Shown: positions 32,582 through 62,700 of the stretch, in pieces
Layout of the letters: every line of letters starts with the position of its first letter
Numbering within the stretch: the stretch's first letter is position 1
NCBI GenBank assembly: GCA_032622095.1
Contig: CP136066.1
Location: forward strand, 205,428,978-205,492,977
Origin: Siphonodentalium dalli
Lineage: Eukaryota; Mollusca; Scaphopoda; Gadilida; Siphonodentaliidae
Direction: 5' to 3'
DNA: 64,000 nucleotides
Notes under the pieces: model-generated
Database searches by the model: none
What the model was told of the DNA's origin: nothing
The model's input: the letters and a program-made list of their open reading frames with translations, nothing else
Program-made: the position numbers and the translations under genes

Positions 32582-32731
32582 TTATACAATCACATTCTCA
32601 TCAAGCCATTTTTCAATAACTTTATAATTAGCGTCCATCCATTTGATGTTTGTTTTAGCCGTTTCCAGTGCTTGGTCAAAGGTGTTGGCTGCTGATCCGA
32701 GGTTCTTGAGAGAAGCTTTGAATGTCTCGAG
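32582..32731 (-). CDS. M1 aminopeptidase, last exon
   Basis: Acceptor TTTTTATTCAG, then 49 codons in phase 0 (LETFKASLKNLGSAANTFDQ, then ALETAKTNIKWMDANYKVIE and on to WLDENVIV) and stop TAA. The TNIKWMD...WL ending is the normal C-terminus of this family, so the protein is full length at this end. Confidence 0.95.
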   Translation of the reverse strand, partial: LETFKASLKNLGSAANTFDQALETAKTNIKWMDANYKVIEKWLDENVIV

Positions 32732-35700
32732 CTGAATAAAAAGATGGTAATAGACAGAACACAATGCACATGTTAACAATTTCATTACTAAATACCTAGT
32801 TGGACTAGTTTCCTAAGGAAATGGTCCGATTATGATCTTATCATTTCCCACCAAAGATTATGAATCCTTCTGCCCTTGTATAATCTTGTATGGTCTGCTG
32901 TTTATGTATGGTAGGCCAAATTCACATTTAGTATTAATGGACTTAAACACAATTCAATTGAAGCGCAATTCAATTGCACTGAATAATAATTAAAAATTGT
33001 GCAGAAGTGCTGCTATTAAAGGTCCTTCCACATGGCGTACCGCGCGATACGCGTGGCATGCCGCACATTTTTCTGCGGCAAATGAGTTTCTGCGACGATG
33101 GCGTTTTCTGCGGCGACGGTGTTTTCTGCGACGATGGCGTTTTCTGCGGCGACGGTGTTTTCTGCGGTTACTCGTAGGTTTCCGTTGATATCATGGTTTC
33201 ATTGTTATTCATGTATATTTGTTTTAAATGATGCACAATCGCAGTAATTGACTTGGACTGAAAACTGCTGTGCTTCCAGTGTCTTTGTTCTATACCGTCA
33301 CTGCAAATGGCAGAGTTTACGAACAACCGCAGAGAAAAACGCGTGGCACCGCACCGACAGATTAGACCAGCGATGTATTCATGCGGCAGCGTTTTCTGAG
33401 TTTTCCTATGTTTTCTGTGATTTCGCACGCAGGCACCCATTGCATGCATACAGTGTGTTCTAAGTCGGCGTATTGTGTGGCATGCCGCATCGCAAATGCT
33501 GTGTATAAGGGCCTTAAAGGCCCACTTAATTTTTGAATCACCAGATCACATTATATACAGCATATTCCATATTATATATACCATTTCAAAGAGGAAGCTC
33601 CAAAACATTGTATTATTGGTCCGCTTGAAAAAAATGGGAACATGTTGTTTTTGTTGAAGTGCCGATGTGTGTTCTGTGATCCGGACTGTACAGTAAAGTC
33701 TATTGCTAGTATTCTCATTGGAAGGGGAATAACTCTATCTTTTAGTTTAAATTCTGATGCATTCTGGGTTGACAAGGGGGGGGAGTTTACAATCTTGCCC
33801 AAATGTAATTTTTTTTATAAATTCTATATCCAAATAGGTAGACAATCATTGTCTTTTTTCTAAGAGAATCATTGTTGTTATCGGGTTGTTATATCAAAGT
33901 AAATAGCTATATTTGCGCGTATTTCAGACGTTATGTTCTCGAAGTGATTAAATTCGATGTGGTTGGAATTTTGAGAACTGAGCTAACAGTTTTATTCACT
34001 AAGATATAAGCCAATAATATGTTTTAACCCTTTCATTGTGGGAGCTGGGGAATCTCGCATATATACGAGAATGCACAGGCTTACACTGTCAAGGTAAACT
34101 TGTCCAAACTTGTAAATATTGTTAGGCCAATGTATTCTCTAAAATATGCGAGGCTCCCTGTTCACAAACAAACCAGGAAGCTCCAGTCATGGAAAGGTTA
34201 ATTTCAAAAGGTGAATGTTAACATGACATAAATAATTTGTACTGCTGACATCATAAAGTAAACTCAACTCCCTATGGGAGAATCATATATATAAGAGAAT
34301 GCATTGGCACAGGGATTTCGCAAACAACCGGGAAGCTCCAGTCATGGAAGGGTTAATTTCAAAAGGTGAACGTTAACATGACATATATAATTTGCACTGC
34401 TGACATCATAAAGTAAACTTCAACTCCCTATGGGAGAATCGCATATATAAGAGAATGCATTGCCACAGGGAATTCGCAAACAACCAGGAAGCTCCAGTCA
34501 TGGAAGGGTTAATTTCAAAAGGTGAATGTTAACATGACATAAATAATTTGTACTGCTAACATCATAAAGTAAACTTCAACTCCTCACAAAAAATGATTTA
34601 AAAATGAAGACGTGCTATAATAATATCAGATCATTGTCTTAAAGATGTATTATCAGAATTAACGCTCCAAAATTACTATTGCTTTGGCTTCGGGAATACA
34701 AAAATATTTGATTCGAGTCGAGGAACCCGCCCATCAAAGCTCGATCAGGTATCGATTTTTGAAGTTTGTTATTTCTTGAGATGTGCAATTATTTGTGGCC
34801 CAGAAAAAAATCGTCAAACCGATGGTCTCGGACAAAATTGCGGATGAAGATGGATAACTCTAAAATCAAGTGGTAATGCGGCCAAATTTTTTGATACTCA
34901 AGTGATAATACGGCCATATTTCGTTGAACAAAATATTGATAAATAACACATTTTGGGAAATTTTATACCATAGTTGACAGTGGTTAGCTTATTTTCTTGC
35001 AATTAATCAATTCTGATAACTAAAGCATATTTTGAAGAAAAGTTGTTGTTGTATCTTGATGATATGGGGACCGTCTGATCGGATTGAGTACCTTTAAATA
35101 ATTCAGAAAACTTGCTCATTTTTAAAGTGGTTATTAGAACCCCGTCCACTATATAATAAGGGTATGTTCACACACACTCAAGTTTACACGGTATGTTTTT
35201 TTTTAGGCATTTCATCCTAGAATACCATATGGTTCCATAATGTGAACGAAAACATGCAAATAAAATTCATCTTTACCACAGCTAACAACATGAGAAGTAA
35301 AATCTCTGTAATTCAACATTTAATGGCGATAATAATAAATTAATATTCTACTATACACATGCAGCGCATATATTTATTTATTATATAATTCCATCCCACT
35401 GGAGAGTGAATATCGTGAGCCAGGAGAGTTCATGCAGTAAGAGAGATATATGTGCGAACGCGAGGAATGCCATATAAAAATAAATTTCATTTACCATTTG
35501 TATATGACATTCCTCATTGTAATTGATTCTTCAATATTATAAACATTTAAAAAAAAAAAAATGGAGCTAATGTCTGATAGTTGACTTCAAATTCCTATAT
35601 GACCCATTCTTGCAAGATAGTTGCTTGCTAATTTCGGTAGCATCCCTACAGGTGGAACTCCAGAGATTTTTAATTCTCACTTAGTTTGTTGTGGTATGGA

Positions 35701-38700
35701 CTCAGATGCATTTTATATGCATGTCTCCGTTCATATTCTGGCAATATCTAGTGTTTTATGACAAAATGCCTGCAAAACATACTGTGCTACTTGCGAGTGT
35801 ATGAACGAACCCCAATTGTCCGATATATTATGTTTTTTATATCCCTTTTGAAAAAAAGGTTGTATTATGTTATCAGTCTGTCCGTCCGTCCATCCGTCTG
35901 TCGTGCCGTCTGTCCGTCCGTTACCATTTTTGGTTTCCGATCGATAACTCCAGTTTTGATTATTTGATCTGAACCAAAGTTGGTATGTGTATTTCCCATC
36001 TAAAGATACAGACCAAGTTTGAATATGGGTTCCGTCCAATTATTTTTACATGAGTTACGGCCCTTTTTCGACAGAATATGATCGTCTGTTAACATTTTTG
36101 GTTTCCGACCGATAACTCCAGTTTGGATTATTTGATCTGAACCAATGTTGGTATGTGTATTTCTCAGCTAAAGATACAAGCCAAGTTCGATTATGGGTTT
36201 CGTCCAGTTATTTTTTCATGAGTTACGGCTCTTTTTCAACTTAAAATTGACCATCTGTTTAAATTTTTGTTTCCGACCGATAACTCCAGTTTGGATTATT
36301 TGATCTGAACCAAAGTTGGTATGTGAATTTCCCAGCTAACAATACAGGCCAAGTTCGAATATGGGTTCCGTCCAATTATTTTTACATGAGTTACGGCCCT
36401 TTTTCAACTTAGAATTTGACCATCTTTTAAAATTTTGGTTTCCGACCGATAACTCCAGTTTGGATTATTTGATCTGAACCAAAGTTTGTATGTGTATTTC
36501 CCAGCTAACAATACAGGCCAAGTTCGAATATGGGTTCCGTCCAATTATTTTTACATGAGTTACGGCCCTTTTTCGACTTAGAATTTGACCAATTTCATAA
36601 CATTTCGGTTTCTGACCGATAACTCCAGTTTTTATTATTTGATCTGAACCAAAGCTGGTATGTGTATTTCCCAGCTAACAATACAGGCCAAGCTCGAATA
36701 TAGGTTCTGTCTAATTATTTTCACATGAGTTACGGCCATTTTTCGACTTAGAATTTGACCGCATTTTGGCATTAAAATTAGGGGTATATAAGATTTTCTT
36801 CACATGTAAGCTCCAAGTATTATTTTATTTTGCGGTAGTACAATTCGAAATGTCTAAAGGGCGTATTTTGCCACGCCCTAGCGATGCTCTTGTTAGTATA
36901 TGTGGTAGATATCCATTAAACTTTAAAGTTTAAGACCAACATCAGCAACCAAGAGTCACCATTCAAGCTCAGTAGAGCGTGGCTTTTCATAAACAATATA
37001 GAAAACAATTTCTAAATCCAGGATGTCGTGTTCAACCACGAAACACAGCATAATTACCCAGTGCGATACTTGTCATCACTGGTCAATCAGGTTTTAGAAA
37101 AAATATCAGCTCGCTGCAATAGTTGATTGGTCGGTGCAGTTATATGCTTAGAACTGTCAATAATATGTACACAGCTTATCAGTAACTGTTGTCTGCAATT
37201 GAATTTACCATTTAGAGGATGTTTAGATACCAAAGTCCACTATGTAGGAACTGTTACATCGGAAGTCGTTCTATTGCCGTTCTATTCTATTGTGATGGTT
37301 CTTGACTGATTTGTTACGGTTCCTTATGATTAAAAATAATCATTTTCGGGACAAAATCACGCATAACTATAGATATCTTGAAATTATTATGCTTTCCTGA
37401 ATGAACACAGGCTGCAGAAGTGGCGTATTATCGAAACCTGAACTCTAGATCACAATTAACTCGGAATTAGCGAGTTAACGCGTAAAAATCAACATGTTAT
37501 CACTGAAAATCAAGCCACGTAAACGCAATTCCTTTTTTTTTTGTGGCGTATAAAATATAAAAATCATTCTGAACACGAACACTGAGTGTAAAGCATACCC
37601 ATGTTATTCTTCTGTAAATTAGATGAGAATATATCCCGATATCGGTTGATAATTTGGAACAGTAGCCTCATAATCAACACGTGTTCGTGTTACGGTTCTA
37701 TTTCAAGCCAATCATGGCTGTGACGGTTCTATAGATAAGATTTATTCGAACGATTTCTGCACTTTGGGTTGAATATTGTCTTGTGTATCTGACAATTTAA
37801 ATCAGATAATGACTGTAGCTTATGCCATTTACATAATACAACAGGTATATTAAGAAAGAATACAATAAATACCTAACAATAATAGTAAGTGATATTAATT
37901 GGTAGAAACCAAATATTGAAAGTCCCGAGAGGTATACTATCATAATCATGCCTGCCTATATGGATATTTACAGTAAAACATGCTCACGCCATCTCATGCC
38001 AAAGCGAAAATCAAAATGGAATGTAACAGCACAATACAAGCATATCCGGAAAACATGAGACAAAATATTCAAATGGAAGAAAATCTTTTGGCCAATTATT
38101 TTGGCCATTTCTGAGAAACTGGCCAAATTGAAAAAAAAATAAAATAGGATCACTGAGAAAACCGAAACTAAAAAAAAAACAATAAAAAAATGAAGAAATA
38201 ATAAAAAGCAAAGGAAGAGAATAGAAAGGAAGGGAGATTAAAATGAAGCAAGACGAACCGGGTAACAAATACACTGTGGCAGTCTATATATAGTAGCAGG
38301 GAATCTGGGATCATGAAACTTGGAAAGAAGAAGGTTGAAATAGAGGAAGTATAGCCTATAGCACTAATAGAACATGTACTGCAACCACAAATTTAATTGG
38401 CACTAGATAATTCCATGAATCTCTACTTTGGTTACACCTGTAAACATCATATTTCACCCGTTAAAGTGATGTGAAACACTCCGGTATGGTGATTCAATAG
38501 AAATGGGGAATAATCTTGCTCAAAGTTGTTCTTTTAACGAATATTATTCCAAATTTCCAACACAAAACGTCATTCTGATATATTTATTAGATGCACTGAC
38601 TCTGGATGGCGAAATCATTTGTGTTTATTTGTTGTCAATTTTTGCGTCCCGAATCCAGATGTAAATATTTACAATTGAGCGCTAGTTTTGACGATGTTTT

Positions 38701-41700
38701 CTATTGAGTGGTATGGTTGATTTCTTTGAAATTTTCGACGATGTTAGTAGAATGCTACATTCTCCAGATTGGCATAACGCCTGCAAACTAACTGATCAGT
38801 TTCACTAACTCGGAACAAGTCCATAATATGTCTTTAAAGCATGGGAATATACCTTGATAATTTTTTTCACATGTGAATGTCCAGATCGAGATTACATGAT
38901 ATTATAGGTGACTTTTGTGAACCAATTTTGCTTAATTGCTTTACCATCATACAATTTTCACCGGGGTAATCAATTCATGTTTATCACGAAATTAGCTCAC
39001 AAAAGTCGCATAAATCACGTAATCTAGAGCTAACCAGAGAACAGATTCATGGCATTATAAATCTACAACAAAACCAAGATTGTCAATATTAGGAAAAATG
39101 CAGTTGATATAGAGAGTGAGAATAAAGCATTCATAGAGCATTTACTGCCACCAGACAGTTGCACATATACGCAAGCGAGTCACACAAGCCCAAATTAAGC
39201 ATGCGTCTTACCTCTTTAAGGTCGAATGGGGTGTTCATTTTGTTTGTGACATATGCTACGACGTTGGAGAATGTAAACGAGCTTTCCCCATACCTAAATA
39301 TAGTAAGAAGATTATATTAATTAAAATAGGAATGTGTCTGAATATAAGTTACCTGCTTCATTTCGAATGTTGAAGTCAATGATAGTGTCGCTCTTGAGAT
39401 GATGAATGACATATCGAAAAATCCTCCGCCAAATCTGAAAAAAATATCCGTTCTCATAATATCATGCATTATGATACACCAGCTAATTACATTTCAGATG
39501 GGGTCAGATTACTAAGTTTTCAACTTTTGGGTGAACAAGGACCAGTCTATATATATCGCACAAAATTTGACAACAGCTGCCTAAATATCTAATTCATGGA
39601 AGTAAAAGTTCATTTTAATGAATGATTTTCGACTCAATGTTGTTATAACTGCTTAGTGAATGAAAATTGCTATCTAGGTGTCCTGGTGTCGCCTGTCTTT
39701 GTTTTTCTTTTTGCGACACGCGTTTCTGTTTATTTGCGAGCACTCAATGTCTCTTGTTGAATAGACTGGTTCCTGGTCAAAAGCTGAAACAATCTGAAAA
39801 TGCAGTAACCCCCACCCCTCCATTCTTATTAGGGGCTGCGATTCGGGCATTATGTTTTGTTTTCAATTTGATTTTGGATACAATTTATATTTTGAATCAA
39901 GATTTTATTCGATTCGGTCAAATGCTTCATCTTTGTGGACAATGAGCCATTGTCTACACAACTTCAGGCCAATAAGGTTCCAGTATAGCTTGTTCTGAAC
40001 AGGGATGGCCCAATTACTTACTCAACGTAGTTTACAATTACAATTACTTTCAACCCCCTGCATTACACATATAATTGCAATTATGTTGAAAACACAATGT
40101 AATTAATTACAATTACTAATACAATGTAATAAATTACGTTTTAATTATTTGATGGAACTTTAAAAATCATTGTATTTTCCTTGTGAATGGTTATGTGTAT
40201 CATTGCTCTATAGTTATTCATCAGTATGACCCAGTATACCAACGATTATTAAAATCCGACCATCAATGAATGAGATATAGAGCTAAAAAAATCGGATGGA
40301 CAGACCCCATTTCTATATCCAAACTTCTTTTGTCGGAGGATAATAATACAGTTCTGATCCATCCAATGACTCAATCTTCCGCACAGAGATTGGATATTCA
40401 AAACATCGAGGTCTATTTGTAACATTTGTGTTCTTGACATCAGATAGCGCAGATGCAGCCTCGTTTGACACACGCTGATAATGCATTTTTTTACCCTGTG
40501 CCAATGCATTCTCTTATATATGCGAGTCGACCATAGGTCGCCTCGCATATATAAGAGAATGCATTGGCCTAACAATTTTATTACAATTTTAATAATTTTT
40601 TCTTGTATTCTTTAACAATTTTATAATTTCACCCATACAGAGCCCCAGACAAACATGAGCAGACGACACTCTTCTATATATGTGTGGGGCTCCCTGCAGG
40701 GTAATGGATGTTTTTTATTTTGTGTAACATTTGTGTTCTTGACATCAGATGCAGGCTCGTTTGCCACACGCTGATAATGCATTTTTTTACCCTGTGCCAA
40801 TGCATTCTCTTATATATGCGAGTCGACCATAGGTCGCCTCGCATATATAATAGAATGCATTGGCCTAACAATTTTTTACAATTTTAATAATTTTTTCTTG
40901 TATTCTTTAACAATTTTATAACTTCACCCATACAGAGCCCCAGACAAACATGAGCAGACGACACTCTTCTATATGCTTCTATATATGTGTGGGGCTCCCT
41001 GCAGGGTAATGGATGTTTTTTATTTTGTGTAACATTTGTGTTCTTGACATCAGATGCAGCCTCGTTTGACACACGCTGATAATGCATTTGAAAACAACAG
41101 CTTCTGCATGGTTTCCAATGTGCTACCTGCAATGTCATATATCTTGCATACACTGTTAACCCTTTGAGTGCCAGGGGCCGATCTCATCGGCCCTAAACCT
41201 ACAAAATAAGTCTGTTAAAGAATATAAGAATAAATTATTAAAATTGTAAAAAATTGTAAAAAAAAATAAATAATAGTTGTTAGGCCAATGCATTCTCTTA
41301 TATATGCGAGGCGACCTATGGTCGACTCGCATATATAAGAGAATGCATTGGCACAGGGTATATGCGTTGATACAAAAATCGACCTGGCACTCAAAGGGTT
41401 AAAGGTACTCAATCCCGATCAGACGCTCCTAAATTACTATTTCTTTGGCTTCGGGGGTAAAAAATATTTGATTCAAGTCGAGGAACCCACCCATCAAAGC
41501 TCAGTGATTAGATATCGATGTTTGAAGTTTACAATTTCTGTTGTTTGTGGGACAGAACTTGACGGTCTTGCAGATAAAGATGGATAACTCTAAGATCAAG
41601 TGGTAATAATAACCATTTGATTTTAGAGTTATCCATCTTTATCTGCAAGTTCTGTCCCACAAACAATAGAAATCGTAAACTTCAAACACTAATCACTCTG

Positions 41701-44700
41701 AGCTTTGATGGGTGGGTTCCTCGACTCGAATCAAATATTTTTTACCCCCGAAGCCAAAGAAATAGTAAATTAGGAGCGTCTGATCGGATTGAGTACCTTT
41801 AATTAACAATTATTGTAAATTTGCAGCGATATAAGGGGTATTATTTGTGTCAGTGTTATGATTCTACCATATAAATGTTCACATGTAAGTGGTAACATGG
41901 TTCTGGCCAGAATACAGTAATGCCCTAAATAATCGACTCCTTAACCACAGCAGAATTATGGGTAATTTTTCAAGATTTAGTCGGAAATATGGCTTGTTGC
42001 CATTCATAGGAAAGCTCTCAGTGAGAGCTTTCCGACCAATGGCAGCAAGCCATATTACCGACTAAATCCTGAAATATTTCACATAATTCTGCTATGGTTA
42101 AAGGGTCATATACTTCGGGCATTACTGTAATCCGGGATATAATGGCAGTGGATTATTTAGGGCACTTCTGTATCTTTGGATTGGCAATACACGCCACACT
42201 TACATTTAAAAATCTTGAACAAAAATGTTGTAAAATGGTCTGGTATTTCATGAGGAAATACTGGTGCAATATATTATTCACATCAATTTCCACGTACATC
42301 ATGTCTTATGCCGGCCATGATACACTTGACGAAGATTGTCAAACGTTTTTTTCTAAAATCATACTTACTTTTCAAATATATCGTCGTATTTGGATCGGAC
42401 AAAATCCCAGGCAAGAGAACGGCCAATCGGATTGCCAGCCACATATCCGATTACGCTAGCTGCATCCTGAGTACGAATTTTCGTTTCATCCATAGCATAT
42501 TCTAGATATCTATAAATAAAGAAAAGTTATATAAGGTCACATGGAAATATATGTTTGCCAGATGTGTGGAAAATATCTTATTCATTCATAATTGATATGA
42601 ATGTGAGGTGTTGGCTTTTCTCTCAGCTTTCTGTATACATGCATTCGTGGTGATAGAATAGGGGGCTTGGTAATTGACATGAATCTCTAATCTGGCTACG
42701 CCCGTATAGAGATCATGTTCAACAAATTAATGGGAACTTTATTGAAGATCTGACGGGATCTTTATAACATCGGAAAAAATAACACGGATAATAAATTTCT
42801 TATTTAATACCTACAGGTTACACTGGTGTAAATGCTTTCCATAGGTCTCAGTACAAACGTTTTAGTGTATACTGTTTACAATATAACGCCTATGTCCAGA
42901 ATTTTCTATAAATCTGAAATATTGACATTTGCGGTAACTTTTTATACGAACAAAATCATCTTACAGGCAGGGAATTCGCCTTTAAATCTTTAAATAAGTG
43001 TCAGAACCGCACTAAAAATATAATGTCATATTTTAAACCGCACCACAGAATTCAAACTTGACTACAAAGGGCTAATGCTTGTGCGAGTGGCTATATTACC
43101 TATGGGAAAGCATAGGGAAGAGGTGAGATATATTTTTAAGCTAAAACACACAAGGCTATTGTATTGACCAATCAGTGCCCAGTGTCTATTTTATTCTCTC
43201 CTAGAATTCCCCCCCGCATCCGCTAGATGTCATTCCGAACCATGTTTACACCAGTGTAACTACATGCACTCTTTAATAATGCATTTCATATTAGTAAAAG
43301 GTCACACTCAAAGAGTACACGCCTTAGTAACTTGAGTGTACCGATTTCGCTTTGCATCGCTTACGATCATACAATTTCTCCCGGGTATAATCAGTTATAT
43401 GTTTTTCGCGACATAATAAGCCGACATCGGCTCACAAAAGTCACTTAAATCATACAATCTCGAGCTGAGACCTTCACCTTGAATTCAATGAAATTTTTTT
43501 TTTTTTAAATATGGATGGCCTTCATGATAGGTATTGCTGTTATAATAGACACATCCATTAAAACCACCATCAACAGAAAGAATATTAAATTATGGACATA
43601 TTTTGTTCTTATTCAAATCATAATATTGCATAAATAGCATGTTATTGTCAAGATCGTACGCAGTGTTAGTGAACAAATACCATGTTATGTTACAGTACAG
43701 TACATAAAGAGTGTGCAATAAGCAAAACACTCGACACCGGGGATATCGTACTGATGAATTTTGGTTAATACTGTTGTTTCAACATACCGCTATAGTGCTT
43801 GCTATTCATCGCAACTCAACATTTCGGTGTTGAATGGGGCACAGCGTGTATCAATCTCCCCAAAAAATCACCACGATGTTGAGTGTGTTGCTTATCGCAC
43901 ACTCTGTATGTGCTGTATATAAACAAATGATCAGCTGGCACAAGTGTGTTTTGTGGATGCTATCCTATTGATACAATTATTATATTATACTATTAGTATA
44001 TTCTTGAGGTCAATTTCATAATTTGATAACTTTTATTTTTAAAGATACAGGCGGCGTTGGCGGTGGGTATGCTGATAAAATATTCACCTCTGTCAAAAAC
44101 CGCCATAAACAGAAATAATAGTAAAATATAGACAGACTTTGTTCTTATACCAATCTGAAATATGGCATAAACAGTATGTTTTTGTCAAATGTTTTTCCTT
44201 TGTTATGTAAACAAAAGCAAAAAACGTTACAGAACCTGGCTTTTTGTTTAGATCCGGATATGGCAAACATAAAGAGCGTTATTTGGAAATAATATGGAAA
44301 TAATAAAGAGCGTTTATATCATTTGTGTGTGATTAACCAATAGAATTGCTCTGTGTTATGTAAACAGAAGCAAAACATCTGTAAAACGAGCAGGCCATCG
44401 TACGTCCTGACGAAAATATACTATTTATGCGCTGATTATGTTTGGCATATGAACAAAACTATATATATTTTAATATTCCTTCTGTTGATGGCGATTTGAA
44501 CAAATATGAATATTTCTGCAATGAACGCCGCCCGTGCCTTTAAATTTAAACCTGCAACCAAGGCCACCCGTACCTTTAAGGAACAGGTTACAATTGACTA
44601 AGAACTAAATTAGCTGTATTAGTTTTTCGATATTATAGAGTTCCCTGTCAGATCTTCAAACAGTACTCAGGTTTTGAACTGGTGGAATATCATATGTATC

Positions 44701-47700
44701 CGGGCATGTAACCAGAACATATAGAGGTACATGGTATGATATACATGGAATGGTGTAACACCCCCCCCCCCCCCCCCCCCCCCATTGTGGAAAGGTTTGG
44801 CATGTTACATTTGGAATGGCACATTGAGATATCTCTCGATCAACTCCACTTGAAAATCATATCAGGCCCATATCAGGCCCATATCAGGGTTCGAAACCAC
44901 AACTTCCCTCTGCAGACTGCAAGGATGGTTTTCACAACATAACCACCTCGACTGAAAGGTCATCCTTGAAAGAAATCATGAGTTAAGCCGCATATCAGTC
45001 TGAACCAGGGTTCGATCTAAGTGTGACATAGAATGGATCTAACATTATCAGAACAGCAAAATGTATTCAACTATATAAAAATTGTTTTGAGAAAATTTAT
45101 TTTATAAGTGCACTACAAACTTTTCTTAATTGAAATTTGAGAATATTTTTCATGCCTTTGTCTAGAAAGTAAGAAAGTGGCTTTCTTACTGTATTAGAAA
45201 TAAATTCTAGCTTTAAGAAATATATTTTCTATATATAAGCACAAAAAACATTTTCTAAGTATACTCCCAAATATTCTTTATATATCTAGCCTAGAAAACT
45301 TTCCTTGACGTTTGAGAAAACATTTCTTATATTTTGCTGGATATTGAGAACAAGGCTTTCTAGAATATAAAAAAAATATTTCTGACGTTTTTCTAGATAT
45401 TGAGAAAAAGACTTTCTAGGATTTAAGAAATTTATTCTTACTATTAAGAAAATATGAGAAAAATATTTAAACAGTTCTTGGGGAAACATTAAGAAAAATA
45501 TTCTCATAATTAGAATTTAAATTCTATAAGAAATGTATTTTTCTAACTATTATAAAATATGATGAAAAGAAAACTTTCTAAGTATACTCCCAAGATATAA
45601 TACTTCTTATTTTAAGTTTTTTTTTATAAAATAAGAAAATCCTTTTTGGCAGTGTGTATATATACTGCACTGGCACACTATAATGTATGGATGCTCTGTC
45701 TTAGTATGATGTGCTCATTGCTTGGTATATACAGTAATGGCCTAAATAATTGACTCCTTAACCACAGCAGAATTATGGGTAATTTTTCAGGATTTAGTCG
45801 GAAATATGGCTGAAAGATTTCCGATGAATGGCAACAAGCCATATTTCCGACTAAAAACTGAAAAATTACCGATAATTCTGCTGTGATTGAGGGGTCGATT
45901 ATTTAGGGCATTACTGTAGGCGGGAACATGTTATCATTTGAAATGTCCATGTTACAATCATAATGGCACACCGGGATGTTCCTGAATTCATATCAAGCTT
46001 GATAATCAGTAAGCCTTGAAATAGGGTGTCTGTCATTTGCAGAATGAGGTCCCCAGAGGGTGAATTTAGTGATGCTATCCTGCATAGCGGGCTAGCATCA
46101 CAAAATTCACCCTCTGGGGACCTCATTCTGCTTACACCTCAGCAGAATGAGGTTCCCAGAGGGCGAATTTTGTGATGCTAGCCCGCTATACGGGGTAGCA
46201 TTACTAAATTCACCCTCTGGGGACCTCATTCTGCAAATGACAGACACACTATTTCAAGGCTTGATAATCAGTCCCAACTTTCGCCCATGTCGGGATTCGA
46301 ACCCACGATGTCGACTTCTATAGTGACTGTTCATGACTTACCTACTTAATACCCAGACCTGTTGACTGCATCCTAAAGCTGACAGAAGCAGGATTTTCTC
46401 AGAGGCGACATTAGAATCCTGCATTTGTTTGAAGAAGAAATCCCAGAGGTCACTATCACCGTCCGAGATCGCAGAACAATAAACTGTTGACTTCAGATCT
46501 GGATCGATACTGAAATCGTACATGGAGATTAATTAAATTAAAGGCCCATTTAATTTTCAAGTCACCGATTATTATTTCTATAGTGACTCGATATACAGTT
46601 TTAAAAACAATCTATGCCATAAAAATATAGTTCATCACCATTTGGAACGTCCATGTCTCAGAAAGTGTCCATAGAGTAATAGAAAATGGATGAAATCATA
46701 TAAACTTTTCCACCGTCTCACTCCCAGAATGCAACATAATTCAAACTATGATATAGAGTTATTCCCCTTCCATTGAACATTTTAGACTTTGCAATACAAT
46801 CCAGATGAAAATTAAGCACAGAAAACACCTAATATGGAAGTCTTTACAGTTTATTACACTGGATAAGTTGATACTACAATGTTTCGGAGCTTCCTCTTTC
46901 AAATGGTATATAATATGGCATATATTTTATACAATGTAATTGACAATTAAGTGGGCCTTTAAGCTAGAATTTAGATTTATAATTTTTATGGATTTATCGT
47001 TGAGAATGTATCAGGTGAAGGCGATGGTCTGACAATTTAATGCAGCGTAGTGATCGAGAGGACAGAACTCTGCGATTCAGTTTGTGAACAATTTATCGAT
47101 AACTCTAACCAAATCCCATGCAGAGTTCAGTCCCCTGTGCAGGACTTACCGCTGCCAGCACCTGCACGCAATGTGAAGAAATGTAACATATATTTATTTG
47201 AGAATTTTGTATGTTACAATTCATTTTGCATTGTTCCGAGAAACTGAACTGTCCATATTCATTTGAAAATTGTCTAGATCAAACCAGAATGAATTGTAAC
47301 TGACAAAACACTTGAATAAAAAAATGTTAGATTTAAATAGAAAATACACATGCCGGCAGCATTCAGACATAGCGCAGAAAGGGGACTGAACTCTATTTTG
47401 CAGCTTGAACTCTTACTTGTTATTGGCAGGATTATCTCTCCAATGCTTCACCTGGATTGCTGAATAATTCTTGCATGAGTCCACATAGGCACAGGCTGTT
47501 GGGGCCAGGAGGGTCATCAGGTATCTAAATGGTAAAGTTTATATATTTAACCAAGCTTTTAACCCTTTACCCAACAAACCGGCCAAAACCGGCCAAATAA
47601 AGCTTCAACAGCCTAAAATATCTTCGGTCTGTCTCAATAGAACCATACAAATATGGATATCATTGGAACCGGCTCCTTGACCACATTGTGATAGTTACAG

Positions 47701-50700: not shown

Positions 50701-53700
50701 GAATATATTGGCCTAGCAATATTTACCCTGACCTTGTGAGCCAATGCATTCTCTTATATATGCAAGACTCCCTGTGGGAGACTCACATATATAAGAGCAC
50801 GCACTGTCACATAATCTATAATGCTGCACCAGCGCAGGTCGCGTCACAAAAGGGTTAATTCATGATGGAGCATCTTTTCCCTGAAAGATCTCTACTGATT
50901 CAGGGTATACATGTACACTAACAGTTTGAGTCAGAGAGCCTCTGTTACTCGGAAATATTTTGTTTTCATTTTGTTTTCCCAGAAGTGGGACAGGAACTGT
51001 CTCTATTTTGAGAACATTACAGCACTTTTGATTATAAATCTATCTGTTAAACCACATATTACTGACACAAAATTTGACATAACAGTAAAGTACCAATATA
51101 TAAGACATGGTTCTTAACTCTTCGAATTGAGAAGTCGACATGTCCCCAAAATGTGGCAAACAATGCGAAAAATAAAGCATAGTGTTACAATAATCATATT
51201 CCTATAATAAATCCCTACATTTTGATATATGTGACCCGCCATATCAAATCCAGTCATAAGTCGGGATTTTTTAACCCTGTGCCAATGCATTCTCTTATAT
51301 ATGCGAGTCGACCATAGGTCGCCTCGCATATATAAGAGTATGCATTGGCCTAACAATTTTTTATCATTTTTTAAAAATAAATGTTTCTTACAATTTTTAG
51401 GACATAAAATATAAAATATCCATTACCCTGCAGGGAGCCCCACACATATATAGAAGCATATAGAAGAGTGTCGTCTGCTCATGTTTGTCTGGGGCTCTGT
51501 ATGGGTGAAATTATAAAATTGTTAAAGAATACAAGAAAAAATTATTAAAATTGTAAAAAATTGTTAGGCCAATGCATTCTCTTATATATGCGAGGCGACC
51601 TATGGTCTACTCGCATATATAAGAGAATGCATTGGCACAGGGTAAAAATAATCCTGACTTACGACTGGATTTGATATGGCAGGTCACATATGGATGAACC
51701 ATGTTCAGTAAGCGACAGTGGAGATATCTTCCCTGAAACCAATGGAGACAGTCGATAAAAAAAATATGGTCGAACAAGACTCAGGGCCGGTCTCACGGCC
51801 ATTATACAAAACCGAGCCACATTTTTCGCCAGTCTCCGGTGGTTTCATGGGAGATATCTCCACTAGCGTATGCTGTTAATTAATGGCTAATCAATATACC
51901 AAAATAAAGGAAAATATTCCAGATATTCGATTATTCTATCAATATTCTAATATTATTGTCATTATGGTCTGCTAAGTGACCAAACAGAGTCTTGTTCGAC
52001 CACTTTTTGTCCGGTCTCCAGTGGTTCTCAATGCGTTCATAGAATGTATCTCCACTGTCGCCTGCTGTAATGGTTGACTCATACAACAAAATGAAGGGAA
52101 TTATTCAAGGAATATGACTATTTCATTACTATTTTTTAGGTTTCGTGTATTGCTGCATTTCTGATCACGGGTTTGACGACATGAGGAAATTCTACATTTC
52201 GGGAGTAAGGAAAATTGTCGTATATATAGGTACCTTTAGTGTTATGCTGTGTTATGACTAATTTTGTGCCAGGGACCTGTGTGTTAAACCACTTTTATAG
52301 CACGGTGGGGAATCACGTGGTTTCGCAGTTGATGACGACGATGACGGCGATGAGGACGAAGACAATGATGATGATGACGACGATGATGATGATGATGATG
52401 ACAACGATGATGAAGAACACGACGAATAACACTTAACCCTTTGAGTGCCAGGTCCGATTTTGGTATCAACACATATACCCTGTGCCAATGCATTCTCTTA
52501 TATATGCGAGTCGACCATAGGTCGCCTCGCATATATAAGAGAATGCATTGGCCTAACATTTTTTTTTTTTTTTTTTTTTACAATTTTTTACAATTTTAAT
52601 AATTTATTCTTATATTCTTTAACAGACTTATTTTGTATGTTTAGGGCCGATGAGATCGGCCCCTGGCACTCAAAGGGTTAACACGGACCATGACTGCCAA
52701 ACGTAACGGCCATACTAACATTTAGTGCATAGATCTGTACATATGTTTTTCACTCTGTATTGCATACAAATTATGATTGAGTGATATAAAGCAATTCAAT
52801 CACAGTACTACATATTCACAATGTCCAAGGCGAACACAAGCTAATATATGAGGAAATGACACAAAACGTAGCCATTTGATTGTTATGACCATATATGTGA
52901 CCCGCCATATCAAATCCAGTCGGAAGTCTGGATTTTTTTACCCTGTGCCAATGCATTCTCTTATATATGCGACCATAGGTCGCCTCGCATATACAAGAGA
53001 ATGCATTGGCCTAACAATTTTTACAATTTTAATAATTTGTTCTTGTATTCTTTAACAATTTTATAATTTCACCCATACAGAGCCCCAGACAAACATGTGC
53101 AGACGACACTCTTCTATATGCTTCTATATATGTGTGGGGCTCCCTGCAGGGTAATGGATGTTTTTTATTTTATGTCCTAAAAATTGTAAGAAACATTTAT
53201 TTAAAAAACATGATAACAAATTGTTAGGCCAATGCATTCTCTTATATATGCGAGGCGACCAATGGTCGACTCGCATATATAAGAGAATGCATTGGTACAG
53301 GGTAAAAAAAATCCCGACTTCCGACTGGATTTGATATGGCGGGTCATATATGCACGTTTATTTTTTAAAACAATTGATACCCTATATTCAGTATCTTATA
53401 AATTTGAAATTTCCACTTTTTCATGCTACAATTACCTAACTCAACAATATACTGTGTAAATAGTAATCTGTAGTTTCAACTGATCCTTTAGTTGCATGTT
53501 CAATTGTCCTATAGGCAAAATTATGTCTCATCAAATAATATGGGGATATTCTCATCTTGGAAACAGGGGTCCCCAAAAAATAAATAGTCTTACTAGCATC
53601 AAACAGATAACGTACCATGAATTTACCATAGAGTGGGGTTCGCTGCAACATCCTCTTCACGTACCCGATCTCTGTCATAGCAGCGTACCATGGCACATAG

Positions 53701-56700
53701 TCATTCTCGTCATGTAGATAGGTCAGCGTGTCCATAGCAATATCTTGATCAGCGTGCCCAGACCTACATATATACTTTGTATGAATACAGTATGATAATA
53801 TACAATTATAACCCAATTTCTGTATCCCTGTCTTTTGCATATTATCCTATTATCCAAACTGAACCTTGTTCGACAACTTTCTTTCGCCAGTTTCCAGTGG
53901 TTTTCAGGGGCACTCTATCAGCTCCCAGACTTTGGGGGTGTCAGTTTGGAAATTTCCAACACTTGGAAAGCTTGAGGCCAGTCTATAGATGCTAGGATTT
54001 TGCAATTTTCATGTTCAGATTTCAAAATGTTCCGTTCAGCACGGTGTGCCCTTGTCCTCCCATGTGGACAGTCATAATTTAAGAAAAACAAATCGAGGTG
54101 TGAATATTTTTGGAGTTAGACCACCAGATGTTTGGATTTTGCAATGTTGAAGTTCAAATCTCATATTGGGTTGGCACAGTGGATTCTGTTCCCAGATCAC
54201 AAGATTAATGATCCATTCAGAAGATGATACCATCCAGGTCTGTCATATTTATGGAGTAAAATTTGTATAAGTGTCCATTGTACAAATTCAAATTTCTTAT
54301 TGAAATGGACATACCAGGTATCGATCGGAATGGCACAAATGTCCTTGTGATCTAAATCAACTCAGATAGCTATATCGGTGTATGCACTTGTCATTATACC
54401 AACAACAGTAACACACCTGGTCAAGTGGTCCTGCTAATATGGGCTATGATGCTGGTGTTCCTGCTGAATTGCAATGATGCGGGTAGGGCAAACTGATGCC
54501 ATTACGAAAAGTACTGTTATTTTTTCTAAAGTTGTCATTTTCGCGGTGTTTGGCTAATCCGAGCGATTTGACAAAAAAAAAACAGTCTGTATGAAACATC
54601 AAGAATATAAATATTTTTGAAAAATTTAGTAATGCCTGCGCTGGTGTTTCTAAAATGATGTAATTAATCATCTTGATTATTTGTCGATTTTCAACAACTA
54701 ATACAACCAGTATTAAAACATTTCGCAATAAATATGTTTTTGAATGCTTGATACCAAGCCTTGAAATAGGGTGTTTGTCATTTGCAGAATGAGGTCCCCA
54801 GAGGGTGAATTTAGTGATGCTACCCTGCATAGTGGGCTAGCATCACTAAATTCACCCTCTGGGGACATCATCCTGCAAATGGCAGACACCCTATTTCAAG
54901 GCTTGCTTGATACGCATAATGGCTTTTCCTGGATATGTTCTGATTATCAGAACAGGGTACAAAAAGACAAAATATAAAGGTACTTTTTGTTAACCCTTTA
55001 CCCAACAGAAGGGCCCTGTGCCAATGCATTCTCTTATATATGCGAGTCGACCATAGGTCGCCTCGCATATATAAGAGAATGCATTGGCTTAACACATTAA
55101 AAATTATAAAATTGTTAAAGAATGTAAGAAAAAATGGTAAAAAGTGTTAAAAAAAGATTTTTTTTAGGCCAATGCATTCTCTTATATATGCGAGGCGACA
55201 TATGGTCGACTCGCATATATAAGAGAATGCATTGGCACAGGGCATAACTGTAACTATCACAATGTGGTCAAGGAGCCGGTTCCAATGATATCCATATTTG
55301 TATGGTTCTATTGAGACAGACCGAAGATATTTTAGGCTGTTGAAGCTTTATTTGGCCGGTTTTGGCCGGTTTGTTGGGTAAAGGGTTAACAGCATCAGTA
55401 TTCCCTAAAAGCGTCATAGCAATTTAGCAGGACCAGTTGACCAGGGGTGGATGTATGCACCTGTCATTATACCAACAACAAGAGACAAGCCTTCAAATAG
55501 TGTGTCTGACATTTGCAGAGTGTGAATTTGGTGATGCTACCCTGCATAATGGGCTAGCATAACCACATTCACCATTCAGAGACCTCATTCTGCTTAGGCC
55601 CCTTCTTTTGGGAAGTCTCAAATTAACAGTTTTTAGTTACTTTTTCCCTTCTGTTCGGTTTCTATATCCCCCAATTTTCACAAGATTAAATACAATATGA
55701 GTTGACTAATGGGTGAATATCACCAACTTCAACTGGGGAACTTCAATCTGATCCTATATAGGACTCTCATAGCAGTTGTTTTATAAGGAGAATGGGGTTT
55801 CCAGATGGTGAATTTAGTGACAATATCCAGCTGTGTGGGATAGCGTCACTAAGTTCACCCCCTGGGAACCTCATTTTGCTAATATCAGACACACTATATC
55901 AAGGCTTTAAAATAGGAAGGTCAGAGACGTGAATGGCATGGCGACAGGGGTGGGAGAAATTTGTTGCTTTTATATTTTCCTAGTTTCCAAGAGATGGAAA
56001 GCTTGAGGTATAAGTTGGGATATAAATAGAACCGCATGAGTGTCTGGATTTTGACAAAATTATCGCACGAGATTTGTTGGCGGAGCGATACCTCGAGTGC
56101 GGGACAATTCGTCAATTGCGATAATTCGTCAAAATCCAGACACTCATGCGGTTCTATTTTTATTACATAATCTCCGTATCAGAGTAAGTTGACTCACAAT
56201 CGTACATCTCCGGTACAGAAAATGTGAATTTAATTGAGTTTTAACGGAATTTTAGAGTTAACGCAACAATCAGACAGGGAGCCTGTCTATCCGCGAGTGT
56301 CCTTGCCCCATCTTTAATGATGCGTTTGAAATTAAATTCTGTGCCTCGACAAACATATTCTTGAAATGAAACTATACTTGAATGAATCATCTCATCGATC
56401 GATCGCTTATTTTTTCTTTATTGTCGTGATTGAAAAAGTAAAGATAATAACGGCGAGAACCAGTCTAACAACACTGAATGAAAGAGTTCCGTCGACAGAT
56501 TGCACTAGTGCGATTCTGAGAATTATCACACCCTGGAAACTCGTGCGATCATGCGAATTACGTTGATAGATATGTAATAAATTACAACATATGAGAGGGG
56601 GGAAATGGAATATACACGTCACTGAGGAATATACATGTGGTAATAATTAGAGATGGGGTCTATCTCTTCCTAAAACAAGTTTTATATAGTTTCCTGGTTA

Positions 56701-59700
56701 TAAAATAATAAACATGAATCAATTGCCCCTGTCTGGAAATACTTCTATCAATTAATATTGATTTTGTTAGAATTTTTTCTGGTATATTATACATACAATC
56801 AATTTGGGACATGTAACAGCTCGTATTTGTCAAGAGCGTAGAATACGGGATAACTCTATCTGAAAGTTCTAAAAATAGTAACGAAAAATTATCCAAATTG
56901 ATTATCGCATTATATAAGAAAATATTGATACAAAATTAATTTTAATTGATGGAAGCATTTCCGGACAGGTTATTTTATACCCCAGAAACTATATAAAACA
57001 TACTGAATTTAACTTACTTGGCCAGATTCCACGCGTCATTAATAACTTGGGCTCTGTTGATGTTCCCAATTACCTAAAAAAAAAATCAGAAAATGAACAT
57101 GCAATCTCGCTATATTTTAAAATTGATAACGAGCATTTGATGTCCATCACAGACTCTGCATGCATTCTTAAAACAAATGTGAAATTCAATTCTACACAAT
57201 ATGTTTTAAATTTGATCTTAAACAAAATTGTGTAGAAATTGTGTAGACATGGCATGTGTCGGTGGAATTTCCTCAACATTGAATATGAGTGAATATGTGT
57301 GTGTATCATAGTTATTAGATGAGATGTGTTCTATTGGAGACACAAAACCCCGCAAAGGCTTCCACATATGCATAACACAACATTGGCAGCAGTTTTAAAA
57401 TTTGTTATACACTGTTTATATCAAACTGAACAGCACATAATTGTGTAGCACAAAGTTTTAAGGCTGCTGTGAGATTTTAAATATGGTAGATTTTACGAGG
57501 TTTGTGTTGCTAATAGAACATATGTGACCCGCCATATCAAATCCAGTCGGAGGTCGGGATTTTTTTACCCTGTGCCAATGCATTCTCTTATATATGCGAG
57601 TCGACCATAGGTCGCCTCGCATATACAAGAGAATGCATTGGCCTAACAATTTTTTACAATTTTAATAATTTGTTCTTGTATTCTTTAACAATTTTATAAT
57701 TTCACCCATACAGAGCCCCAGACAAACATGTGCAGACGACACTCTTCTATATGCTTCTATATATGTGTGGGGCTCCCTGCAGGGTAATGGATGTTTTTTA
57801 TTTTATGTCCTAAAAATTGTAAGAAACATTTATTTAAAAAACATGATAACAAATTGTTAGGCCAATGCATTCTCTTATATATGCGAGGCGACTGGATTTG
57901 ATATGGCGGGTCACATATCTCATCTACCAACTATAATATTCAATGTTGAGAAAATTCCACTGACACATATACAGTAATACCCTAAATAATCGACTCCTTA
58001 ACCACAGCAGAATTATGGGTAATTTTTCAGGATTTAGTCAGAAATATTGCTTGTTGCCATTCATCGGAAAGCTCTCACGATTATTTAGGGCGTTACTGTA
58101 TGTCATGTGTCATTTCTAAACAGTTTTGTTTAAGATCAAATTAAAAATATATCATGTAGAATTTATATTAAGAGTCAGAGCGACCACAAATTTCCTTCGT
58201 CTTTGTTAGATCATGCCACGAATCTCTGTGCCCATAGACAGGGGCGCCGGAAGAGGGGGCACCCGGGGCAGAGAGGGCAGCTGCCCCCCCTGCCCTTGAC
58301 CAAGGGGGGCGAGCGCGGGCAGGACTTGCCCTTTTTCTGGAGACAGAAAATGCTTTTTGTGTGTTTAATCTCGTGTTTTTATAGCAAAATGTGACTTTTT
58401 TGGTCCAAATACCACCAATTTCACAAGGAATATTAATTTTTTGTCAATTTTATCACAAAACGGCCATAAAAACTGACAAATACCATTAAAATAGGGATTT
58501 TTGCCACAATGAATTTGTGGTTATTTCCCCAAGTTTGCGGAGAAAATGCCCTTTTTTGCGGAAAAGTGCCCTTTTTGTAGGCTCTGCCCCCGCTGAACTT
58601 GGATGCTTCCGGCGCCCCTGCCCATAGAGATCATTCATGAACGTTGTTGTTCTGCCTGTAGAGATCACTCATGAACGTTGTTGTTCTGCCCGAAGAGATC
58701 ACTCATGAACATTGTTGTTCTGAAGGGAACTTTATATCAGTGAAAATATAATGCAGACAAATCTTGAAACAGTGTGTCTATCATTTGCAGAAAGAGGTCC
58801 ACAAAGGGTGAATTTAGCCCGCATGGTGGGCTTGCATCACTAAATTCATCCTCTTGGAACTTCATTCTACTGAGGCCTCAATTGCTATGGGAGACCAGGA
58901 TCAGATTGAATTTCCCAGTTGAAGTTGGTGATGTTCACCCATTTATAGTCACCTCGATTATAGATTTGATCTTCTGCAAATTAGGGGATATAGAAACTGA
59001 ACAGAAGGGATTAAGTAATTGAAACAATGTTAATTTGAGACTATATACACTTACCAGAAGATGGGGCTCAAGCATAACGAAGTATCCAGGTTGTTAATTT
59101 AGTTACGCTATATACAGTAATGCTCCAATTAATTGACCTCTTAACCAAAGCAGAATTATGGGTAACTTTTCAGGATTTAGTCGGAAATATGGCTTGTTGC
59201 CATTCATCGGAAAGCTCTCCCCGAGAGCTTTCCGATGAATGGCAACAAGCCATATTTCCGACTAAATCCTGAAAAGTTACCCATAATTCTGCTTTGGTTA
59301 AGAGGTCGATTAATTAGAGCATTACTGTAGTCCTCTGTGCGGGGTAGCATCTCTAAATTCACCCTATGTGGGCCTCATTATGCAAATGACATACAAACTA
59401 TTTCATGGCTTGAATATTCCTTAGTCAAAACCTGTTCCGCAATAATGCATTTCATGTAGGTGAATATCTCAGCTCGAGACTACGTGATTTAGTCCACTTT
59501 TGTGAGCTGATTTTGTGATAAGCATTGAATTGATCTTGACTTGGGAACTTCACCTACTGTGAAATTCATTATTAAGGAATATGTAATAACTGAAAAACCA
59601 AAAGGTTCCCATGTGTTTTAACTGGTGGAATATGATCTCTACGTGTGTACACAGAGTAGAGATTTATGGTGTGTTATATGTGTCTTTGCCAGCCAAGGAC

Positions 59701-62700
59701 AACAATTAGAAAACACACTGGCAAATACGAGGTTTCATCCCGATCATTCCTCATACTTAGTTGAAATGTGTAGGGTTCTGATTTCCGAAGGTAGAGATTC
59801 ACGGGCATAATCGATATTCATACCAACAATTTCAAGTGAATTACTCACACTGTGGTTACTCCTAAGTTGTCTGATTATAGCCTTCCAGTTGTAGCGTTCA
59901 TAGTTTACTCTGTAGTAACCATATTCATTTATATTTCCCATGATCCAGCTATTCGCATCTTCAATGGGCAGTGTCGGATCATCCACATCAGCTATCAAAC
60001 AGAATGTATGCACTCAGAAAGGTTGCTAAGTAACACAAAGTTAGAAGAATCTGATGCACTACTCTTTTATTCCAAAATAAAGATACACAATCGGATTCGA
60101 TGGTCCCCATCAGATTCCAGCATCAACAACAATAATAACAACAGCAACAACAACAACATTTCTTCAAAAGACGCTTTAATTAATTACTAAAAAAATAATG
60201 CTAACCACTGTCAACTCTAGTGTAAAGTTTAAAATTTTCCAAAACGTGTTATATATATAGTAACATTTGGTAAAAGAAATTTGGTAATGAGATTATGTCG
60301 GTCGGCTCGTCGAATATTTGCTAGCCCGCCAAATATCCAGGTGGTGAAAAATAACAGATTTTAAATAAATTATATTTGATAACTCTGAGCTTTGACTCGA
60401 ATCAAATATTTTTTTACTCGTGAAGCCAAATAAATAGTAATTTAGGAGAGTTAATTCGGATAATAAATAGTAATTTAGGAGGGTTAATTCGGATAATAAA
60501 TAGTAATTTAGGAGGGTTAATTCGGATAATAAATAGTCATTTAGGAGAGTTAATTCGGATTATGTATCTTTAACCAATTGGCTTTGTTTATATATATTGA
60601 ATACTCGCGGATGAGTAGTCACTAACTGCTAATGGAGTTTTCGACATACATTCATTAGTGGGAGAGCTCACGGTTGCTAGGAGACAAAACGTCTGCAGCA
60701 ATAGTTTAATTAGTTTTACCGCACCTGCCTATATGCTATAATACACCCGAGAATAACTCTTCTTTTCACAACTTTAGAAAAATAACGATACTATTCTTTA
60801 CTAAATGGATTCTCCCATTCAGTTATTAAAGTATACATTGGCATAGTCTACCTATTATTCATCTGGAGGGTAGTTCGGGAAATGTAAGCAGACGACAGGC
60901 AGGTGAACAGATAATACAAGTGTAGAAGAATTTATATTAACTGGTGGGAAATGTTCAGATAATAAGTTCAATAAATGACTTATGGTTTGTAAATGGGTTA
61001 CAATGCTATTATATATTACCTGTTTCCATTGTCTTCGTCAACCAGAATATATCCTTGTTCGTTTTATTAAAGTCTGGTTGAGCACTGTGTGTCCAAGTTA
61101 ACGGTATTTCCCATTTGTACCTGAGATATGAAGACATATATTTAGGGTCACACGAAAACATCTATTATATATTTTGGAAGATCTGTCTGTCTGTCTGTCT
61201 GTGTGTGTGTATGTCTGTCTGTTTCCAATGGACTCGAAAACGGCCGAGCCGATTTCGATTAAACTTGGTATGTGGGAGTATTTTCGGCCGGGGAGTGACA
61301 TAGGCCTATTAATTTGCCCGTGCGATGTGACCTTGACCTTGAAATCGGGTCATTTCAAGGTCAAACGCACGAATATCACAGGATTTCGATGAAACTTGGT
61401 ATGTGGGGGTACTTTCTTATGGGGAGTCTCATAAGCCTATTCATTTGCCCGTGCGACATGACCTTGACCTTGAAATCGGGTCAATTCAAGGTCAAATCTC
61501 GAATTTTGTTGGGATTTCGACGAAATTTGATACGTATGGTTACTTTTGTCTACTGAGTGTATTGGACAGGTCGAGTCGTGTCCCCGACCTGACCTTGACC
61601 TTCAAAATAATCAATTCGAGGTCAAATCGGGTAAAACAGGATGGATTTCGACGGGTACTTTTGTCGGGTACTTTTGTCCGGGCAGTGTTTTGGACGGGTC
61701 AAATCGTTACCCCACCTGACCTTGACCTTCAAAATGGTCAATTCAAGGTCAAAGCCCGGACGAAGTCGGGTCACCTTCTAGTATATATATATACTAGAAG
61801 GTGACCCGACTTCGTCCGGGCTTTGACCTTGAATTGACCATTTTGAAGGTCAAGGTCAGGTGGGGTAGTCAGGTGGGGTAACGATTTGACCCGTCCAAAA
61901 CACTGCCCGGACAAAAGTACCCGTCGAAATCCATCCGGTTTTATCCGATTTGACCTCGAATTGATTATTTTGAAGGTCAAGGTCAGGTCGGGGACACGAC
62001 TCGACCCGTCCAATACACTCAGTAGACAAAAGTAACCATACGTATCAAATTTCGTCGAAATCCCATCAAAATTCGAGATTTGACCTTGAATTGACCCGAT
62101 TTCAAGGTCAAGGTCTTGTCGCACGGGCAAATGAATAGGCTTATGAGACTCCCCATACGAAAGTACCCCCACATACCAAGTTTCATCGAAATCCTGTGAT
62201 ATTCGTACGTTTGACCTTGAAATGACCCGATTTCAAGGTCAAGGTCACATCGCACGGGCAAATTAATAGGCCTATGTCACTCCCCGGCCGAAAATACCCC
62301 CACATACCAAGTTTAATCGAAATTGCTTGGCCTTTTTCGAGTCCATTGGAAACAGACAGACACACAGACAGACAGACAGACAGACAGATCTTCCAAAATA
62401 TATAATAGATATAGACACAATGAGGACATTATTAGGTGTTATTATTTTCTTATTGAGGCAGGGACGGGTTGTATAAAAAGTTTTTGCCATTTTTTATTAT
62501 CTTTTAACACATTTACCACCCACCATCATTTTTTTTATTTTGGAATTTTTTATATGCATATTTTCAGACATCTGAAGGCCTCTTTTTATATAAAATTGTT
62601 CAGATATCCACTCCATTAAAAAACGCGACCAGAAACAAGGAAAAAGAAAATAAACTAGGATATGACACATTACGTAGTATTTTGGCAGCTTGCGCTGTAC

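Follow-up and report, generated by a model that had tools for sequence, protein, structure and literature searches.

An aminopeptidase-N-type M1 gene of the scaphopod Siphonodentalium dalli with a tandem-duplicated, probably mutually exclusive exon pair and a predicted swap of the S1 gatekeeper loop

We describe herein a tandem duplication of exon 10 in an aminopeptidase N (APN)-type M1 gene of Siphonodentalium dalli, the two copies of which (10a and 10b) are probably mutually exclusive. Sequence comparisons confirmed that the two exons form a duplicated pair in an aminopeptidase gene, and that both copies are genuine family sequence. As read from the DNA, exon 10 was duplicated and both copies retained their length, phase, splice sites and family residues; the splicing machinery would then pick one copy. 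This choice would exchange the flexible cap loop of the S1 pocket, together with the start of the next helix, and the two enzymes would differ in the N-terminal residues that they remove. It is quite possible, if short of likely, that tissue- or stage-regulated splicing of the S1 gatekeeper loop switches the primary specificity pocket of this M1 protease and gives the gene two preferences for N-terminal peptides: an APN-like one and another with a cap that is aromatic and acidic.

The gene lies on the minus strand of the window, by which we mean the whole stretch of 64,000 nucleotides that was analyzed, on contig 6 of the genome (2.23 Gb, 9 contigs). Exons of its ERAP1_C domain run through the window (Table 1), and its catalytic exons are found further upstream, outside the window, at C6:205498441-205503349. 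There, GAMENWG and HELAHQ are encoded in one exon and WWDDLWLNEGFASF in the next, which provides the GAMEN exopeptidase motif and the zinc site HExxH...E of an APN-type M1 aminopeptidase. Matches to PF01433 in these upstream catalytic exons exceed the cut-off. The ERAP1-like C-terminal domain is complete with either version of exon 10, ERAP1_C positions 217-317/318 being matched at 73.9 bits with 10a and at 84.0 bits with 10b (cut-off, 38.2). A search of solved structures with the C-terminal part yielded 58 distinct chains per isoform (E up to 0.001), of which the best-scoring were aminopeptidase N or a named aminopeptidase for both isoforms; the best APN chain scored 96.5 bits with 10a and 105.4 bits with 10b. 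The catalytic motifs, PF01433, ERAP1_C and the APN chains all agree with the assignment to an M1 aminopeptidase gene that had been made in an earlier reading from the letters alone (hereafter the sequence-only reading). Our gene model begins at the GAMEN exon, with the signal anchor and the N-terminal domain lying outside of it. The family and, as far as seen, the domain order are those of human aminopeptidase N (CD13/ANPEP) and other M1 enzymes.

Table 1. Exons of the aminopeptidase gene in the window and the gap between exons 10a and 10b (a slash marks a splice border).
Feature	Position in window	Strand	Description
Exon 10a	39353..39434	-	82 nt; phase 2 in, 0 out; encodes FGGGFFDMSFIISRATLSLTSTFEMKQ; borders ttttttcag/A TTT...CAG/gtaact
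Exon 10b	39212..39293	-	82 nt; phase 2 in, 0 out; encodes YGESSFTFSNVVAYVTNKMNTPFDLKE; borders tatatttag/G TAT...GAG/gtaaga
Gap between exons 10a and 10b	39294..39352	-	59 nt
Exon 9, shared	42369..42509	-	141 nt; ends in phase 2; 23/48 residues identical to pig APN; 3' end ...GAAAA/gtaagt at 42369
Exon 11, shared last coding exon	32582..32731	-	49 residues, then TAA (32584-32582); start ttattcag/CTC at 32731
Exon 8 (ERAP1_C domain)	46342..46509	-	phases fit exon 9; borders from sequence
Earlier ERAP1_C exon	53616..53771	-	higher border is that of the match, not a mapped splice site
Earlier short exon, same gene	57018..57073	-	
Earlier exon, same gene	59849..60013	-	higher border is that of the match
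Earlier exon, same gene	63666..63847	-	

The sequence-only reading had pointed out two 82-nt exons that share their phases and are bounded by GT-AG sites, and all of these features, including the coordinates, were reproduced. Equal length and phase in neighboring homologous exons, as in tandem mutually exclusive exons, are found here. The two were also said to encode gaplessly alignable alternatives of a 27-residue segment; the gapless alignment was borne out, though with an identity of just 6/27 residues and 40/82 nucleotides. Exon 9 ends with GAA AA, and the A or G that opens exon 10 completes a lysine codon in both isoforms. When four exon combinations were translated, 9+10a+11 and 9+10b+11 both proved to be open and to share a common stop codon. 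Joining exon 9 straight to exon 11 shifted the frame, and with both copies included the frame closed with TAA in codon 26 of 10b, 4 nt ahead of the exon 11 junction; both outcomes had been foreseen in the sequence-only reading. The full C-terminal product is therefore obtained by single inclusion only, as the reading had held in stating that the sequence demands exactly one of the two exons. Retention of the 59-nt gap introduces an in-frame TAA, by which one long exon of 223 nt was ruled out. The flanking introns measure 2,934 nt (9 to 10a) and 6,480 nt (10b to 11). No third copy of exon 10 was found between exons 9 and 11, where the next best segment scored 28. Tandem repeats with periods of 156, 168 and 296 bp occupy parts of the flanking introns (34161-34583, 35928-36760 and 40450-41089), and the gap between 10a and 10b is free of inserts.

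Each copy is identical to pig APN at 11 of its 27 residues, but the copies agree with each other at only 6, so the pair appears to be old and neither member looks like debris. Against two other APN chains, 10a has 8/27 and 9/27 identities and 10b has 13/27 and 12/27; against the paralogues on contigs 8 and 6, the values are 8 and 7 for 10a and 11 and 8 for 10b, again of 27. The single exon 10 of three other M1 loci of this genome (L003, L004 and L011) reaches 6/27 each to pig APN, and by this measure of sequence 10a is more APN-like than they are. Given that exon 9 matches pig APN at 23/48 residues, the extent of change in 10a is about that of its neighbors; 10a appears somewhat less conserved than 10b, yet within the range of the neighboring exons. 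Among 69 open 82-nt segments between AG and GT on both strands of the window, scored with BLOSUM62 against the pig APN segment, the pair scored 65 and 55 and the third-ranked segment 1. Moreover, in none of 200,000 residue shuffles did either copy reach its own score against pig APN, and the 10a-10b alignment score of 37 was likewise reached in 0 of 200,000. This ranking and these shuffles ruled out a chance open frame or a chance resemblance. It is hardly credible that the pair represents one long exon, an error of assembly or a fortuitous likeness: the short gap alone speaks for it, while the gap carries an in-frame stop codon, the residue order beats every one of the shuffles against pig APN, and 42 of the 82 positions differ between the copies, which hence are not a duplicated read or haplotype. 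A more serious alternative, albeit an unlikely one, is that 10b is the working exon and 10a a relic, an old duplicate that is now rarely or never spliced in. In its favor are the closer resemblance of 10b to most family members, the lower Pfam and PDB scores of 10a and the absence of any yUnAy branch match within 60 nt upstream of 10a. On the contrary, 10a retains its frame, length and phase together with a pyrimidine-rich acceptor and a good donor, it equals 10b in identity to pig APN, and an exon of this kind seldom survives neutral decay to the divergence observed (0.065 to 1e-5). The decay model started from 10b under F81, with base frequencies that we set ourselves, and indels were assumed to occur at 0, 0.05 or 0.1 per substitution; the joint probability that frame, AG and GT were all kept was 0.065, 0.011, 0.0019, 0.012, 0.00033 and 9.6e-06 in the six settings, the mildest (0.065) taking half the JC distance of 0.86 without indels and the harshest (9.6e-06) the full distance with 0.1 indel per substitution. 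Neutral decay is not strongly rejected at the mildest setting, and it is the family match that makes decay unlikely. A recent loss of 10a use is conceivable.

If both copies are used, as we believe probable, the question is how joint use is avoided. The sequence-only reading had suggested that the 59-nt gap could sterically prevent the joining of one copy to the other. Four yUnAy matches are present in the gap, with the A at 8, 32, 36 and 49 nt from the 10a donor, and all consensus branch-site adenines of the gap thus lie no more than 49 nt from the upstream donor. In OGDH, exons 4a and 4b are exclusive through branch points located 25-41 nt from the donor, and a threshold of ~50 nt was proposed (PMC7969005, in the part of its text available). 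By the same principle, the short gap would put the 10b branch site too near the 10a donor for easy joint use, and our analysis makes steric exclusion of double inclusion plausible. Nonetheless, a human intron of 56 nt, in which 27 nt separate the donor from the branch site, is spliced (PMC8363638, available in part), so a gap of 59 nt is no absolute bar to double inclusion. This leaves some room for the view that the exons are alternative without being strictly exclusive, double inclusion or skipping being a regular third outcome that truncates or changes the C-terminus or reduces enzyme output. We regard it as distinctly improbable: double inclusion would lose the last 49 residues, skipping would swap the residues of exons 10 and 11 for an unrelated tail, and the branch-like adenines are closer to the 10a donor than the threshold cited for OGDH. 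Nonsense-mediated decay follows a 50-55 nt rule. The TAA reached upon double inclusion is situated 4 nt before the last junction and the skipped form ends in the last exon, so decay may spare both of these wrong products, which speaks for the non-exclusive view. Local RNA structure gave no signal as an exclusion device, the fold over 39140-39500 being ordinary (z 0.72; 76/100 shuffles fold at least as well). No known RNA family was found in the window at the gathering score.

The swapped segment had been placed in the C-terminal helical domain, and this was borne out and narrowed, its first eight residues corresponding to the S1 gatekeeper loop. In human APN, Phe896 caps the S1 pocket and resides on a flexible eight-residue loop of domain IV, Y891GGGSFSF898, which may act as a gatekeeper; S895, F896 and S897 are tabulated as S1 residues, with E865, S868 and S869 of ERAP1, Y892 and R895 of ERAP2, and P957 and Y961 of IRAP in the corresponding columns (PMC6222927, in the sections available). 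Docking models also have Phe896 contacting S1 ligands (PMC7226027, PMC7571175), and the ligand contacts of CD13 include Asn900 and Phe896 (PMC10329278), each as given in the available portions of these papers. No gaps are needed to align the swapped segment with solved APN chains. In the alignment, Y891 falls on the first codon lying fully within exon 10 and residue 900 on the tenth, and the first eight codons match the human loop Y891-F898. The pig chain has the same loop as human APN, YGGGSFSF, followed by SN; in the same register, 10b reads YGESSFTF-SN and 10a reads FGGGFFDM-SF. The cap phenylalanine is kept in both copies. Isoform b preserves the APN-like SFTFSN around the cap, with the glycine hinge replaced (YGES). 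Isoform a preserves the GGG hinge and the cap phenylalanine; in it, human S895, S897, F898 and N900 correspond to F, D, M and F, respectively. As inferred from the aligned residues, the splice choice would swap one S1 cap, FGGGFFDM, for another, YGESSFTF. Because the loop matches the published S1 gatekeeper, a specificity switch becomes a concrete prediction. Our guess from residue type is that isoform a could favor basic residues through the acidic D of its pocket wall.

The peptides trimmed by M1 enzymes include regulatory, dietary and antigenic ones, and the preference of each enzyme is set largely by the S1 pocket. We know of no duplicated exon at the position of exon 10 in vertebrate M1 genes. 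The sequence-only reading likewise knew of no such switch in aminopeptidase N genes, and by titles and the beginnings of abstracts we found none for any M1 gene in the open-licence literature. Related arrangements exist elsewhere. The vertebrate OGDH 4a/4b pair is similarly an ancient exon duplication in an enzyme gene with a short intervening intron, and its exon choice alters how the enzyme is controlled; however, the choice there alters calcium sensitivity, whereas the aminopeptidase pair is predicted to swap a substrate-pocket cap, the gap is 118-131 nt in birds and mammals compared to 59 nt here, and the branch points were mapped in OGDH but are guessed here from the yUnAy consensus (PMC7969005, available in part). 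Alternative RNA forms of aminopeptidase N genes were reported in Helicoverpa armigera, but these are truncated or circular, with junctions that fall within exons and are not of the GT/AG type, and in the available text the term "mutually exclusive" occurs only in background on Dscam and in the title of a reference (PMC6722899). Human tandem duplicated exon substitution also has homologous neighboring exons that are used one at a time and tune the protein; the words "aminopeptidase", "peptidase" and "protease" are absent from the main text as available (PMC9741552). The device is of a known kind, and its new place would be an M1 aminopeptidase with a predicted S1 loop swap. If this is true, interchangeable S1 caps in an otherwise identical protein would provide a clean experiment in loop-set specificity, and splicing would serve for what other family members achieve through separate copies of the gene. 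Four splice junctions and a P1 preference are predicted directly from the sequence.

The duplication was seen in this gene only, with 6 of 11 other M1 loci of the genome giving no firm answer. In these 11 loci, the DNA downstream of the C-terminal exon matches was scanned, a procedure that could miss a strongly diverged second copy of exon 10. An exon 10 of 82 nt in the same phase is present as a single copy in each of five loci (L002, L003, L004, L005+L025 and L006). Weak single candidates were seen in L010 and L011, and no convincing exon 10 was found in L001, L007, L008 and L009. The interval from exon 9 to exon 11 was wholly covered in four of the five confident loci; in L003, exon 11 was not located. 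The scan queries included the exon-10 peptides of four confident loci, making the top scores of these loci self-matches; with 10a and 10b as the sole queries, the scores were 58, 42, 31 and 31. A genome-wide search with the C-terminus of isoform a gave no further exon-10 match, a 27-residue exon being near the detection limit. Two pairs of M1 loci in opposite orientation, C1:28504713-28530111(+) with C1:28748112-28771558(-) and C9:213880175-213893603(+) with C9:212327286-212340494(-), have equal or near-equal match scores and look like inverted segmental duplications.

Repeats were also observed at the catalytic exons. In the gene with exons 10a and 10b, a 57-bp minisatellite of 42.6 copies (90% matches) is located beyond the end of the window, at 71793-74220 in window numbering (L012:7793-10000 and L013:1-220). 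Its unit consists of the 3' end of the HExxH exon plus the 5' splice site of that exon, and the array starts in the genuine end of the exon. A further 31 donor-like copies of CATCAGGTA, each of which is a possible decoy donor, are present in the 3.1 kb of intron examined. In the paralogue on contig 8, five tandem copies ~101 bp apart (L020:3650-4180) comprise the 3' splice site and the first part of the next catalytic exon (the W/G-rich WWDDTWLNEGF region), and the last copy alone continues into a complete exon. The intron concerned corresponds to the minisatellite intron of the gene with exons 10a and 10b. Outside the M1 family, a scan for cytochrome P450 exon matches (679 candidates, 92 scored) revealed large clusters at C7:158508522-158945386 and C7:192253156-192441848.
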